Shown piece by piece: positions 2,567 through 63,809 of a stretch of DNA of 64,000 nt. Position 1 is the first letter of the stretch, and the number at the start of each line of letters is the position of its first letter. Location of the stretch: contig JAILDV010000035.1 of NCBI GenBank assembly GCA_024688885.1, forward strand, positions 1 to 64,000, written 5' to 3'. The notes below the pieces were generated by a model. It was not told the origin of the DNA. It ran no database searches and worked only from the letters and a program-made list of their open reading frames with translations. The stretch is from Bacteroidaceae bacterium. GTDB lineage: Bacteria > Bacteroidota > Bacteroidia > Bacteroidales > Bacteroidaceae. Both the position numbers and the translations under genes were made by a program.

Positions 2567-2958
2567 TTATGAATAACTGGATGGAGTTCCATCCAGTTAT
2601 TACCAGTGCCGATTTAGGCTGGAGTGAGGAGTGCATCAGGGATGCTATGTCTGAAGACCCGAAAGAGATATTCAATTATTTCTGGCATAACTTCTTTTCC
2701 ATCATCTTTTACTATGTGGACGATGGTAACTTCTATGAGTTGTTTATGGAATCGAATCCCCACAAATTTTGGCGTATCCCCAAGATTGAATACTGGGATG
2801 GCAAGTACATAGGTAGACAGATTCAATGGGAAAGTCATCAGGAAGGAGATGTACTGTATGAGTTTGACGACGACACCGATTTGTGGGAAACTCTTCATAT
2901 TGGTGGCAAACCTATTGGCGAGGTACTTAAACGTTCTTATATAGCTGAAATCAATTGA
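2545..2958 (+). CDS. Hypothetical protein
   Basis: ORF overlapping both neighbours. Confidence 0.6.
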   Translation: MDKEKELIMNNWMEFHPVITSADLGWSEECIRDAMSEDPKEIFNYFWHNFFSIIFYYVDDGNFYELFMESNPHKFWRIPKIEYWDGKYIGRQIQWESHQEGDVLYEFDDDTDLWETLHIGGKPIGEVLKRSYIAEIN

Positions 2959-3710
2959 GGATGAGCAATAGACAACTATCATTTTTTTCGGAGTATGAAT
3001 TGACTAAAATGATCTCGCCAGCTTTCTCTAAAAAGAAAAATCAGGCAGAATGGAACCTTAGAGTCAATAGGCTTGGGGCAGTTCGTGCTGATTTGTCAAA
3101 AGACCTTCAGCTGTCAGATGAGGGCTGCCCGACTATCCAACCATATTATGGAATACCTCAACATCCTCTGATTAATTTTAAGGAGGCTTTGGCTATAGAA
3201 AGTTTTGAATACTGGGTGCATTTCTTTATTGATGATGTTCTTTTTGAACAGATATGGAATCCGAGGTACACAGCAAGGGATATTGATATACTCTGCAGGT
3301 TCAAGGGAATTTTCACACCAGATTTCACATTAGATCCGAGACTTTCCCAATGGCAAGAACAGTTCAACATATTTAGAAGCCGAGCCATCGGCCAACTCGT
3401 CCAAAAAAGAGGGGGCATTGTCATTCCGACAATAGGATGGTCTTTCCGAAGGAGCTTTGACTATTGTTTCTGCGGGTTGTCAGAAGGTGGAACGGTTGCT
3501 ATTAGCACAAATGGTGTTTTGAATAATTTTGTTTCATTGAGATTGTTTAAGGAAGGGATGTTCGAATTAGAAAGACGCCTACGGCCCGAAGTCATTTTCA
3601 TCTATGGCGAAAAAATAGAACTTCGTACAAACGCCCGTTTAATCTGGCATCCCAATACGCAAATAGTTCATCTGAGGAAGCACGATTCTCAGAAACGCAA
3701 TAAAGAGTAA
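2955..3710 (+). CDS. DUF4417-like protein
   Basis: ORF; PTIGWSFRRSFDYCFCGLSEGGTVAISTNGV region resembles DUF4417. Confidence 0.65.
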   Translation: MRMSNRQLSFFSEYELTKMISPAFSKKKNQAEWNLRVNRLGAVRADLSKDLQLSDEGCPTIQPYYGIPQHPLINFKEALAIESFEYWVHFFIDDVLFEQIWNPRYTARDIDILCRFKGIFTPDFTLDPRLSQWQEQFNIFRSRAIGQLVQKRGGIVIPTIGWSFRRSFDYCFCGLSEGGTVAISTNGVLNNFVSLRLFKEGMFELERRLRPEVIFIYGEKIELRTNARLIWHPNTQIVHLRKHDSQKRNKE

Positions 3711-3712
3711 AT

Positions 3713-3745
3713 AAAAAGGCAAGTTTGAAAAATAACTTGCCTTTT
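3713..3745 (+). terminator. Rho-independent (bidirectional) terminator
   Basis: AAAAAGGCAAGTT-tgaaaaat-AACTTGCCTTTTT just after the stop at 3710. Confidence 0.85.
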
Positions 3746-3769
3746 TCGTTTTATTTCATTTTTTATTCG

Positions 3770-3778
3770 TAACTTTGC
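3770..3778 (+). promoter_or_regulatory. Bacteroidetes -7 promoter element (TAACTTTGC) upstream of the structured region
   Basis: Matches TAnnTTTG consensus; lies between the terminator and the structured region. Confidence 0.6.
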
Positions 3779-3779
3779 C

Positions 3780-4086
3780 ATCGGTTCGGGGAGAAATCCG
3801 GACTAACAAAAGCATTTGCTATTATTTCGCGTTAAGCAAAATTGCGTAGGAAACAATTTGGAATAATAACGCTCGAAAGTAATAGAGATGTGGGATGTTG
3901 GATAACGGCATCTCCATTCCTGCCAATATAGCAATGTATTCACGCCAATGGCGTGGTGCATTCTTACAAGGCAGGATGGGGTTCCAATTCCTACGCAAGC
4001 CCCAGCTTAACGCATAAGAAGCATCACGCTTTCTTTGTGCGTCAGCGATTGGTAGTCGATGCAGTACTTAAAACTATCAATCGAGT
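3780..4086 (+). ncRNA. Candidate structured RNA / long structured leader (copy 1)
   Basis: Hairpins 3784-3803, 3885-3914 (GAGATG/CATCTC), 3919-3975 (CCTGCC/GGCAGG enclosing CACGCC/GGCGTG) and 4021-4062. Stem CTATTATTTCG (3819-3829)/CGAAAGTAATAG (3874-3885). Long-range pairing 3829-3863 with 3982-4013. Confidence 0.75.
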
Positions 4087-5211
4087 ATGGCTAACACTAA
4101 CCTCGCTAACGCTAAAACGGCAAAGAACGACGAGTTCTACACACAATATGCAGATATACAGAAGGAGATAAATGCTTACTTGGAATTCGACCCGAATGTG
4201 TTTCGCGGTAAGACGGTTCTTCTTCCATGTGATGACCCTGAATGGAGTAACTTCACAAAATTCTTTGCTCAAAACTTTGAGAACTTTGGACTGAAGAAAC
4301 TGGTTAGTACGAGTTATGCTGTAGAGTCGAAGAAGATAAAGGACTGGAAACCTACACTCTTTGAAACAGAAAGCCCTTATTACGACGCAGACAAGAGCCG
4401 TACTAACGGCAAGATATTTATCCTTGATGAAGACATCAATAGCGATGGCCGCTTTAATATCAATGACCTTCATTGGAATTACCTTGAAGGTGATGGGGAT
4501 TTCCGTAGCGATGAGGTGAAAGCCCTTCGTGATGAAGCGGATATAATAATAACTAATCCGCCTTTCTCGCTGTTTAGGGAGTTTGTGGCATGGTTGATAG
4601 AATCCGAAAAGCAATATGCAATAATTGGGAATGTGAATGCCATATCATACAAAGAAGTTTTTCCTTTAATAAGAGATAACAAAATGTGGATGGGTGTAAG
4701 TATCCATAGCGGAGACCGTGAATTTGGTGTACCAGATTCATATCCACTTGAAGCAGCTGGTTGGCGTATTGATGATAATGGTAATAAGTTTATACGAGTA
4801 AAGGGAGTTCGTTGGTTTACAAATATTGACCATGGGCTTAGACATGAAAATTTTCCTTTAATGACGATGGAGGATAACATCCTTTATTCAAAGCACAAAG
4901 AAATCAAAGGAAAAAAATACATTCACTACGAGAACTATGATGCAATAGATGTACCATACACAGATGCTATTCCTGCAGATTATGAAGGAGTGATGGGAGT
5001 ACCTCTAACTTTCTTGGATAGATATTGCCCAGATCAATTTGAAATTATTGGTCATCCTCATGGGGATTATGGTTTGGAATTGGGACTTAAACCATATCCA
5101 CGTGAATTGAAAAAATTGAACAAAGGACTTCGAGATGGAGACCTCTATTTTATGAAGGAAGGCATCCCCGAGTTGCCATATCGTAGAATACTAATCCGCA
5201 AAAAACAATAG
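4087..5211 (+). CDS. EcoRI-family adenine-specific DNA methyltransferase
   Basis: [21 protein letters not shown]-terminus, [19 protein letters not shown] catalytic motif; paralogous to 62679-63809. Confidence 0.88.
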
Positions 5212-5213
5212 CT

Positions 5214-6389
5214 ATGCAAACGAAATTGATGACCGACCTTACGGTCAAAGAGATATGTGAAGGTTTTGTCTATAATCAATTGGAAGGCAAAGGCCTGTTT
5301 GGATGGGCTGGCAAACTGACCATTCAGCCAGAGTATCAGCGCAATTATCTCTATGCTGAGAATGACGGAAAGAAAGAGGTTGCTGTGATTGAAAGCATAC
5401 TGAAAGACTATCCGATAGGACTGATATATTTCAATGAACCAGAGTCAGGTCGCTATGAGATTCTTGACGGACAGCAGCGCATCACAAGTATTGGACGTTT
5501 TGTTACAGGAAAGTTTGCCATCAAAGATAATTTTGGCATGGAGCAATACTTCACAGGACTTAACCCTGAGGAACAAGAGAAGATTCTCAACTACAAACTT
5601 CTTATATACATTTGCGAGGGTACAGAGAAGGAAATAAAGGAATGGTTTGAGACCATCAATATTGCTGGTGTTCCATTAAACAAGCAGGAACTGCTGAATG
5701 CCACCTATTCAGGACCATTTGTTACAAAAGCAAAGGAGACATTCAGTAACTCTCGCCATCCACAACTGCAAAAATGGAGCAGTTATATAAAAGGTAATGC
5801 CAACCGCCAAGAGATTCTTCATGAGGCTCTTGTATGGGTGTCAAAGGGTGAAGATAATGTAGGAGGCTATATGAGTCAGCATCGCAATGAAGACAACATT
5901 GAAGAACTGAAGACATATTTCGATACCGTAATAGAATGGGCAAAGACCTTATTCGGTGAGCCAAAAAGTGAAATGAGAGGTTTGGAATGGGGTGCTTTCT
6001 ATGAGAAATATCATGCCAATTCCTATAACCCCTCACAATTACAACAACGAGTTAACGAACTGTATGCTGATGAGTTTGTAACTAACAAACGTGGAATCTT
6101 TGAATATGTACTCGGTGGAGAGATAGAAAAGAGTCTGTTAAATATCCGTATCTTTGAAGATAGCGTAAAGAAAACTGTCTATGCACGTCAGACGAATGAA
6201 GCTCGCGAGAAAGGCATCAGTAACTGTCCAGAATGTGCGAAAGGACATGAGAATATACGCACCAAGATATACAAGATAACTGAAATGGACGCAGACCACG
6301 TAACTGCATGGAGTAAAGGCGGCAGCACTTCAATAGAGAACTGCCAAATGCTATGCAAAGCACATAACAGAGCGAAAGGAAACAAATAA
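5214..6389 (+). CDS. DUF262 (ParB/Srx-like) protein with C-terminal HNH endonuclease domain
   Basis: [15 protein letters not shown]262 signature; CPECAKG...[35 protein letters not shown] motif. Confidence 0.9.
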
Positions 6390-52399: not shown

Positions 52400-52636
52400 A
52401 GTCACTCCTTTCACTCCCATCAACCCAATCTTGCAACAGTACATGGAAAAATATTAGGGTGAGCCACAACGCATAGTGATTCACCCTAACAAAAAATTGC
52501 TTATCTCACGACAAGCAATCTTTACTAACCTTAAAATAAATCTAATACCATGAAAAACACGTGGCAAAGTTACGTACTTCTATCAAGAAATACAATAACT
52601 CCTTCACGAACCCTTCTTTCTTTTAAATTTATTTAA

Positions 52637-61649: not shown

Positions 61650-62387
61650 TAATATTTTATATTTGTTTAATTTACTTTCAAAATAGTCCTTCGGGTTTAC
61701 TCATCCGCATCAGACGGAAGAAGCCCCCGAAGTTTCTGATGCAAAGATACGATGAATTAAGCGAAAATAATCGAGGCACATTTATCCTTAAAACGCACAA
61801 TCATTTATCTTATTAATAATCAACAATATAGCAAAAACACTATTTTATTAATAGAATAATTTGAGAAAGGATTCTCATGCAAGATGTTCAACAAGCCACG
61901 ATCAAAAACGTGGTACAAGTTTATCAGCAAATTCCTCCGAGTGTTGTTTGCAACGATCGCAAGATAGCGACACGTATACAAAAAGTCAAGGGCAAAGTAC
62001 ATTTAACATTTACAGTGTATGTAATTCACGCTCAGGTTTACTCGTTACATTAACGAAAGCATCCAAGAACATGTTCTCAGGTGTAAAGGTACAATGAATC
62101 CACGAAACAGGGGGTAACAAAAAATGTATCGATATTACATGTTAGGTTGTCCTATTACGGAATGCATCTTGTATAAAATAACAAATTATAGAAACATATC
62201 AGCCAAAAGGAATGAATATTGGATGATATATGTTTAAATGAGTGAAATGAAATGAGAAAAGAAGTTGTGACACCTGTTATGTCAATTTCGTACTCTTTAT
62301 TCACTATTTTTTTACTTTTTTTAGTTATACACTTTCTCTTTTCACTAATTCTTCTCCCAAAACTTTTGTCGTTCGAAATTATCTTTG

Positions 62388-62399: not shown

Positions 62400-62678
62400 T
62401 AATCATCGGCATAAGCCTCGGCGGAGGCGCTGATGTGACATATTAGAATAATAACAAGCGTTTGCTGTTATTCGGAATTGCTTCAAGAACCTAGGAAATT
62501 CAAGAACTAATATGCCGAAAGAATAAGTCGCAAACGTCTGTGCGTTAAGCATGGGCGTGACTTATCTGGTGTATTTAGGCTTCCTAGGGCCGTTGAAGCA
62601 TGGATGGGAATATCGTCCATGCTTTTTGCAGCCCTATAGCCTGCCTCCGAAGATAAGCATGCGCATAATGCATAGCGT
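62400..62678 (+). ncRNA. Candidate structured RNA / long structured leader (copy 2)
   Basis: Hairpin GCCTC/GAGGC nested in CATC/GATG (62404-62435). Stem CGTTTGC..TTATTCGG (62459-62475)/CCGAAAGAATAA..GCAAACG (62515-62536). Long-range GCTTCAA-gaa-CCTAGGAA (62480-62497)/TTCCTAGG-gccg-TTGAAGC (62581-62599). Hairpin GCATGGA/TCCATGC. Confidence 0.75.
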
Positions 62679-63809
62679 ATGGCTAAAAGAAATTTGGATG
62701 CTGCCAAGACAGCCAAGAAAGACGAGTTTTATACGCAGTTGACAGATATTGAGCGAGAGTTGCAGCACTACTGGCCGCACTTTCGTGACAAGGTGGTATT
62801 GTGCAACTGCGATGACCCCTACGAAAGCAACTTCTTTAAGTACTTTGCTCTGCGGTTCAATCAGTTGGGATTGAAGAAGCTGATTTGTACGTGCTACAAT
62901 GGTTCACCTGTACAAGGGAACGAGTTGTTACTCCGTTTTGAGCCTTGGGATGACGAAGCGGAAATCAAGAAAAAGGCTTATAAGGTAGAGATTACGGAAG
63001 TGAAAGACATGAATGGTGATGGTGCTGTTGACCTTTCTGATGTGCGTTATCTACTCCAGAACGACAAGAATGTGCTTTCCACTTTGCAAACAGGCGATTT
63101 CCGTGACCCGGAATGTATAGAATTGCTAAAGCAGGCAGATATTGTGGTGACCAATCCACCTTTCTCACTGTTTAGAGAATATCTTAGACAATTGATGGAG
63201 TATGAGAAAAAATTTATAATTGTAGGACATCAGAATGCTATAACGTACAAAGAGGTCTTTCCTCTTCTTAAAGAGAACAAGGTTTGGCTTGGATATGGAT
63301 TCAAAGGTGGTGCAGCTCATTTCTTTTCTCCATATGAAGACGTGGCGACTGCAGGTGATCACAAAAAAGATATGATTCGTGTTTCTGGAGTGAATTGGTT
63401 TACCAATATAGAGATTGCCAAACGCAATGAACAAATAGATTTGGTTTGTAAGTATTCTCCTGGAGAATACCCTACTTATGATAACTACGATGCTATAGAG
63501 GTTTGTAAAACAGCGGACATTCCTTGTGATTATGATGGTCTAATGGGTGTCCCTATCACCTTTATGGATAAGTATAATCCCAACCAATTTGAGATTGTAA
63601 CATTGGGGATAGGCGAAGGTAATTTCACACCCAAAAAGAAATATGAGAAATTTAGAAATCCAGAAACAAAGGAGTTTATATCGGATAAACGTGATTTTCT
63701 TTTGTATGTAAGAAAACCCAATGGAAAATATCTAACATCTGAAGGATATAGACTCGATAAAGTATATGCCCGTATAATTATCCGCAATAAACATCCCAAA
63801 GCCTTATGA
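62679..63809 (+). CDS. EcoRI-family adenine-specific DNA methyltransferase (paralogue of 4087-5211)
   Basis: [62 protein letters not shown]. Confidence 0.9.
   Translation: MAKRNLDAAKTAKKDEFYTQLTDIERELQHYWPHFRDKVVLCNCDDPYESNFFKYFALRFNQLGLKKLICTCYNGSPVQGNELLLRFEPWDDEAEIKKKAYKVEITEVKDMNGDGAVDLSDVRYLLQNDKNVLSTLQTGDFRDPECIELLKQADIVVTNPPFSLFREYLRQLMEYEKKFIIVGHQNAITYKEVFPLLKENKVWLGYGFKGGAAHFFSPYEDVATAGDHKKDMIRVSGVNWFTNIEIAKRNEQIDLVCKYSPGEYPTYDNYDAIEVCKTADIPCDYDGLMGVPITFMDKYNPNQFEIVTLGIGEGNFTPKKKYEKFRNPETKEFISDKRDFLLYVRKPNGKYLTSEGYRLDKVYARIIIRNKHPKAL

Follow-up and report, generated by a model that had tools for sequence, protein, structure and literature searches.

A structured RNA upstream of a methyltransferase-nuclease gene pair in a Bacteroidaceae bacterium: a probable cis-acting leader from an apparently undescribed RNA family

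The 64,000-nt stretch of the Bacteroidaceae contig JAILDV010000035.1 that was analysed here (the window) contains a highly structured non-coding region directly in front of the genes for an EcoRI-family DNA methyltransferase (MTase) and a DUF262-HNH nuclease. This raises the question whether the RNA is a part of the enzyme system or controls the expression of the two genes. An earlier note on this DNA had described a terminator, a promoter at about position 3770, a structured region of about 307 nt, the MTase gene and, beginning 2 nt after it, the nuclease gene, and all these parts are indeed present (copy 1, Table 1). The predicted fold of the region 3780-4086 is far more stable than the folds of dinucleotide-shuffled sequences (-113.8 kcal/mol vs -76.0 +/- 5.0 kcal/mol, z -7.6, 0/100). 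A second copy, with the same gene order of MTase and then nuclease, is located at the end of the window. Based on the comparisons presented below, we regard it as probable, although far from assured, that the RNA represents a new class of cis-acting leader, which forms the 5' part of the MTase-nuclease mRNA and would act as an attenuator-like switch of contingency genes.

A scan against Rfam, which the earlier note had proposed, revealed no curated family covering the leader: the two window leaders had no match at the gathering threshold, lax thresholds gave none in five related loci, and among 4227 Rfam families none matched the scanned loci except for neighbouring DUF805 elements. The latter (DUF805 and DUF805b RNA, RF03081 and RF02914) are likewise candidates for cis-regulation and lie directly 3' of the leader RNA in two loci (L226, 1703-1861; L287, 1289-1356, minus strand), but they are only 35-68 nt long and stand beside the leader family rather than within it. 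A covariance model built from 33 aligned class-1 leaders (R1), which scores the copy-1 leader, itself one of the seeds, with 161 bits, yielded hits in 37 out of 393 Bacteroidales genomes, many of them away from PF13651. The RNA lies beside pairs of MTase and DUF262 genes, for whose co-occurrence the earlier note had proposed a search, and also in front of unrelated genes. The genes directly behind R1 matches include those for a Tsp45I restriction enzyme and MTase, MmeI, type III Mod, Eco57I, N6_Mtase, a D12 MTase with HNH, a helicase-HNH protein, a P-loop ATPase, small HTH proteins, acyltransferases, a GDSL hydrolase and sulfatase/PEtn-transferase-like enzymes.

Weak R1 matches turned out to be shorter sequences related to the leader of copy 2, here called class 2. 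The leaders of copy 1 and copy 2 have no similarity detectable by BLAST, and the model R2, which was built from 20 class-2 sequences including the copy-2 leader, matches both of them (62453-62637 at E 7.9e-18, 3807-4044 at E 9e-5). Matches to R2 are present in 162 of the 393 Bacteroidales genomes, frequently in several copies each, and in about 60 of 285 other Bacteroidia genomes, and in a sample of the phylum only six weak matches (best E 1.7e-6) fell outside Bacteroidia; many of the loci are from metagenome-assembled genomes, and the E-values of the covariance models are approximate. The matches outside Bacteroidales have z values of -4 to -9 and the same architecture, and mostly precede genes for secreted proteins. 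In general, the genes behind class 2 encode mostly secreted proteins or lipoproteins, and also restriction proteins, DUF262 proteins and regulators. According to a simple hydrophobicity rule, signal-peptide-like N-termini are predicted for 27 of 37 class-2 downstream genes, compared to 13 of 52 open reading frames (ORFs) of the window. About ten copies of the leader exist in the genome from which the window originates; those at C8:33750, C11:18076, C28:10025, C8:142962, C51:25801, C58:1172, C2:53243 and C67:68371 precede genes for an Eco57I MTase, lipoproteins and other proteins. No description of this RNA family was found in the literature searched, whose coverage left out most subscription papers. 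The thousands of unnamed candidates reported by Fremin and Bhatt 2021 (PMC8040213) may include it, and the main text of that article names no link to restriction or lipoproteins. Thus, the leader appears to be one copy of a large, Bacteroidia-wide, multicopy RNA family that is apparently undescribed.

The position of the RNA is consistent with a role as a leader. The Bacteroidetes-type promoter motif TAnnTTTG was found 43 times upstream of class-1 RNAs (6.7 expected) and 26 times upstream of class-2 RNAs (3.6 expected), with a peak at -40 to -100, and is nearly absent within the RNA. Given this six- to seven-fold enrichment upstream and not inside, transcription most likely starts in front of the RNA, which then forms the leader of the gene that follows. 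Class 1 is co-directional with the next gene in 53 of 53 cases and class 2 in 37 of 39. In class 1, the end of R1 coincides with the ATG of the downstream gene in 45 of the 53 strong matches with an identified gene; since all R1 seeds end in ATG, the agreement is in part built into the model where MTases are concerned, but not for other genes. In most RNA-bearing MTase loci the last hairpin stops 0-4 nt 5' of the ATG, and in class 2 the start codon is often located 10-130 nt downstream of the RNA. The RNA combines what is looked for in a cis-regulatory leader, namely a co-directional 5' position, a promoter upstream, many unrelated genes of related function downstream, and a conserved secondary structure with compensatory base changes.

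The latter are abundant in both classes. In class 1 (33 leaders, A2), compensatory double changes were found in 24 of 33 consensus pairs. In class 2 (49 members, A5), the helices PA and PB reach a score of 0.900, in comparison to 0.250 after shuffling and 0.01-0.19 when the strands are slid, with 158 double-change cells vs 55 in shuffled data; PA and PB are absent from the model R2 and hence independent of it. For the apical hairpin, A5 contains no unpaired cell. In addition, the partners of a putative GCATT/GATGC pseudoknot were spotted by eye in several relatives.

A distal segment of the RNA can pair with the apical hairpin through the 3' arm of the latter. Of 56 MTase leaders, 34 show this complementarity (p<0.05), and a U-rich tract follows the distal complement immediately in most MTase leaders and in most leaders of other genes. 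Among 62 class-2 members, the distal segment and the apical 3' arm are paired in 98.6%, with 7 double-change cells vs 0.9 expected, and a longer form of this helix shows 20 double changes vs 7.7 in A5. The distal segment and the first U's can also pair with the 5' end of the RNA (class 2; 85% of cells paired, covariation 0.184 vs 0.094, 18 double changes vs 6.7). The predicted distal pairings with the apical 3' arm and with the 5' end are mutually exclusive, and the order of the parts, with the two arms of the hairpin followed by a spacer, the competing strand and the U-tract, is, judged from these alignments, the layout of a strand-exchange expression platform. Further, one apical position forms mostly U.G in the hairpin and mostly a C-G pair with the distal strand, which favours strand exchange. 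Mutually exclusive helices that end in a U-tract correspond, at the sequence level, to an attenuator or riboswitch. The RNA shares with such leaders the structured 5' position, the many functionally related genes and the overlapping alternative helices, but differs from them in that its terminator-like helix is long-range and in that it matches no Rfam family. Between the RNA and the ORF, the loci L293-L322 contain an additional small, GCTTTGGGGACTGAAGC-like hairpin. In several of them, among these L308, L312, L314 and L320, its GGGAC is complementary to the distal segment in the 5' half of the latter, and the hairpin is a possible third competitor.

The switch could work as follows. In one state, the apical hairpin would be closed and the distal segment held elsewhere, in class 2 mainly by the 5' end of the RNA. 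In the other state, the distal segment would displace the apical 5' arm and pair with the 3' arm, leaving a duplex followed by the U-tract, a terminator-like OFF state. The trigger might be a ligand, a protein or spontaneous bistable folding, and as an alternative output, the last hairpin, which lies at the start codon, might control translation. The leader would in this way gate genes that pay off only at times, such as those for restriction systems, envelope-modifying enzymes and surface proteins.

Several points weigh against this explanation. Transcription, termination and regulation are deduced here from sequence comparison, the E-values of the covariance models are rough, and R2 comprises only 8 modelled pairs. 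A simple scan found no local terminator inside either window leader, and the terminator-like pairing is long-range, with a loop of about 60-70 nt that encloses other helices, unlike a textbook intrinsic terminator. The U-tract may not cause termination at all, since some of it can pair with the 5' end. Finally, class 1 lacks the exact pairing of 5' end and distal segment seen in class 2, and the alternative state may therefore differ between the classes.

The gene pair itself has the appearance of a candidate type II restriction-modification system of the ordinary kind, in line with the restriction-type module proposed earlier (PF13651, PF03235 and PF01844; PADLOC MTase_II and REase_II). The copy-1 MTase matches PF13651 with 436 bits (cut-off 26.4), and the catalytic motif NPPF is invariant among 16 relatives. 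The copy-1 nuclease contains the DGQQR motif (ILDGQQR in the translation) and a C-terminal HNH domain. PADLOC type II models cover both copy-1 proteins near full length, the REase_II model PDLC03418 matching residues 11-391 of the 391 aa of the nuclease at E 1.2e-91. The pairing of the two genes is kept in most homologous loci; PF13651 is present in 54 of the 393 Bacteroidales genomes sampled, and the nuclease gene is usually adjacent. In contrast to typical type II systems, the nuclease has a GmrSD/SspE-like DUF262-HNH architecture, and no relative with a solved structure was found for it by sequence.

Could the RNA nevertheless be integral to the enzymes, as a guide, scaffold or cofactor of the nuclease or the MTase? 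It does occur upstream of many such gene pairs, and structured RNAs are known upstream of other HNH nucleases (IscB). However, Pfam found no RuvC or other RNA-guided nuclease domain in the copy-1 proteins, which, together with the many unrelated genes behind the RNA, also distinguishes the system from IscB/HEARO-type RNAs. Moreover, the RNA is missing from most homologous pairs. When the 280 nt upstream of about 190 MTase loci were scored for fold z, the distribution was bimodal, with about 60 strongly structured regions (z below -3.5) and the remainder near zero; the upstream region is unstructured in roughly two thirds of the homologous MTases, nearly all of which have the nuclease gene adjacent. 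On a quick maximum-likelihood tree of the MTases, with RNA labels set by the z cut-off, the presence of the RNA is scattered, as well-supported branches require it to have changed 15 times or more, although the label is clustered relative to shuffles. Thus leader and enzymes are separable. In eight loci (L016, L017, L018, L019, L025, L063, L091, L196) a gene for a small XRE-type regulator occupies the position of the leader, and MTase loci with an XRE gene upstream carry no structured leader; this suggests interchangeable control modules. It is reminiscent of the controller (C) proteins of restriction-modification operons, but the control module in the window is an RNA that is shared with many non-restriction genes. 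We therefore consider an integral role of the RNA very unlikely, and a guide or scaffold of the nuclease was rejected, given the unrelated downstream genes and the many pairs lacking the RNA. Of the roles suggested in the earlier note (regulator, scaffold or guide), the regulator is favoured, and the claim that the RNA is integral to the module is not supported. Conserved leaders also precede homologous MTases in relatives, and no Rfam family matched; two of the outcomes that the earlier note had named as refuting its reading were thus not seen.

The remaining explanations concern the level at which the RNA, or its DNA, might act. Termination or cleavage after the structured part could yield a small RNA which acts in trans, for instance on the encoded proteins or on other mRNAs, with read-through expressing the gene. 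A free RNA would fit the U-rich tract that most copies have in front of the ORF and the compact fold of class 2 with its paired 5' and 3' ends, but the downstream genes share no conserved protein partner and the end of the class-1 model at the ATG would be needless; we judge this possibility improbable. To about the same degree we doubt that the leader switches translation only, with the start site masked by the last hairpin and by the interaction of its loop with the 5' end, and without attenuation. The covarying class-1 hairpin close to the ATG speaks in favour of it; against it, the module of distal segment and U-tract is conserved in both classes despite the distant start codons of class 2. 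Still less likely is a DNA element, either an invertible promoter (inverton) that makes genes phase-variable or a site of recombination for the exchange of coding cassettes, even though inverted repeats are present and the restriction and surface genes resemble the gene set of invertons. An inverton was rejected, because the promoter box is placed 5' of the repeats and not between them, and relatives show a single orientation. A recombinase would also need a shared repeat sequence, whereas the nested, G.U-tolerant helices vary by locus and covary.

A further point for recombination is that the copy-2 operon is 97.6% identical over 2252 bp to that of another locus (L110), between unrelated flanks; the identity sets in exactly at the first base of the ATG of the MTase and reaches to the nuclease stop codon (window 62679 onward, or L352 1180-3430, vs L110 3998-6248). 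The leader in front differs, being of class 1 in L110 and of class 2 in the window, which again argues against an integral RNA. The same boundaries at start and stop were seen for an MTase ORF in two viral contigs (99.8%) and for L015 and L077 (88.9%). Near-identical coding sequences bounded by start and stop codon, with unrelated flanks, were noted for the window and L110, for L157 and L158, and for L015 and L077. Such pairs look like a precise exchange of coding cassettes, but they are very few. As a general rule, a leader swap at the ATG was rejected: many pairs begin at the ATG merely because intergenic DNA diverges faster, and hence only the few near-identical pairs are informative.

Other candidates were also dropped. 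A mobile repeat or MITE does not agree with position and orientation being tied to start codons, nor with the lack of BLAST-level identity between the window copies. An integron attC-like site was considered because of GTTRRRY...RYYYAAC in PA of copy 1, but the order is wrong and the motif is not conserved. A phage or plasmid origin was abandoned, as a class-1 RNA matched none of the phage and plasmid records searched and viral contigs did not contain its 5' signature. The order of RNA, U-tract and ORF is known from type III toxin-antitoxin systems of the ToxIN kind, but here a single structured RNA replaces the short tandem repeats (none are visible in the leader sequence, for which no tool search was made), Pfam finds no RNase toxin domain in either copy-1 protein, and the partners are many and unrelated.

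The features of both copies are listed in Table 1. Elsewhere in the window (52487-52560, minus strand) there is an Rfam match to the Bacteroidetes sRNA FopS (RF04319, 61 bits).

Table 1. Features of the two leader-MTase-nuclease loci in the window.
Feature	Position	Strand	Remarks
DUF4417 protein gene	2955-3710		directly 5' of copy 1; gene end at 3710
Terminator-like hairpin of upstream gene	3713-3746	+	13-pair stem, then T-rich tail
Bacteroidetes-type -7 box TAACTTTG, putative leader promoter	3770-3777	+	from sequence
Copy-1 leader RNA, class 1	3780-4086	+	307 nt, non-coding; R1 spans 3804-4089
5' GCATT	3812-3816	+	proposed pseudoknot with GATGC 4058-4062 in the last hairpin loop
Helix PA, 5' strand CGCGTTAAGC	3828-3837	+	partner 4005-4013; covaries in A2, independently in A5
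Helix PB, 5' strand TTGCGTAGG	3842-3850	+	partner 3990-3998; covaries in A2, independently in A5
Apical hairpin CACGCCAATGGCGTG	3941-3955	+	3' arm plus flank is GGCGTGGTGC, 3950-3959; 100% paired in A5
Distal segment GCATCACGCT	4021-4030	+	10 bp complement to apical 3' arm 3950-3959; p=0.010 for copy 1
U-rich tract	4030-4036	+	immediately 3' of distal segment
Last hairpin GATTGGTAG...CTATCAATC	4047-4082	+	4 nt short of ATG; covaries in A2
EcoRI-family adenine-specific DNA methyltransferase	4087-5211	+	PF13651 E 1.4e-130, 5-373 of 374 aa; PADLOC MTase_II
DUF262 (GmrSD_N) + HNH nuclease, presumed cognate restriction enzyme	5214-6389	+	PF03235 E 6e-22, PF01844 E 7e-8
Copy 2: box TATCTTTG	62380-62387	+	5' of copy-2 leader
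Copy 2: leader RNA	62405-62678 (start approximate)	+	class 2, core 62453-62637; fold z -5.8
Copy 2: apical 3' arm GCATGGGCG	62549-62557	+	
Copy 2: distal segment CGTCCATGC	62614-62622	+	complements 62549-62557, then TTTTTGC; p=0.022
Copy 2: EcoRI-family MTase	62679-63809	+	PF13651 E 1.1e-144
Copy 2: DUF262-HNH nuclease, 373 aa	63809-64000	+	continues past window end; DGQQR present (translation from L352)

A wider picture, possible but doubtful, would be that one ancient RNA switch, of which a Bacteroidia genome may have up to about ten diverged copies, gates contingency genes. It would answer to a single signal common to all copies, for example envelope stress or attack by phages, or else flip on its own to diversify cells, and it may be that coding cassettes are exchanged behind it at the start codon. 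If the leader is indeed a cis-acting switch, a large RNA family outside Rfam would control surface proteins and restriction systems in the dominant bacteria of animal guts. The link between defence against phages and variation of the surface would then be made by RNA and not by DNA inversion. Covariance models would list the regulon in any Bacteroidia genome, and the question of what switches contingency genes on would become directly testable.
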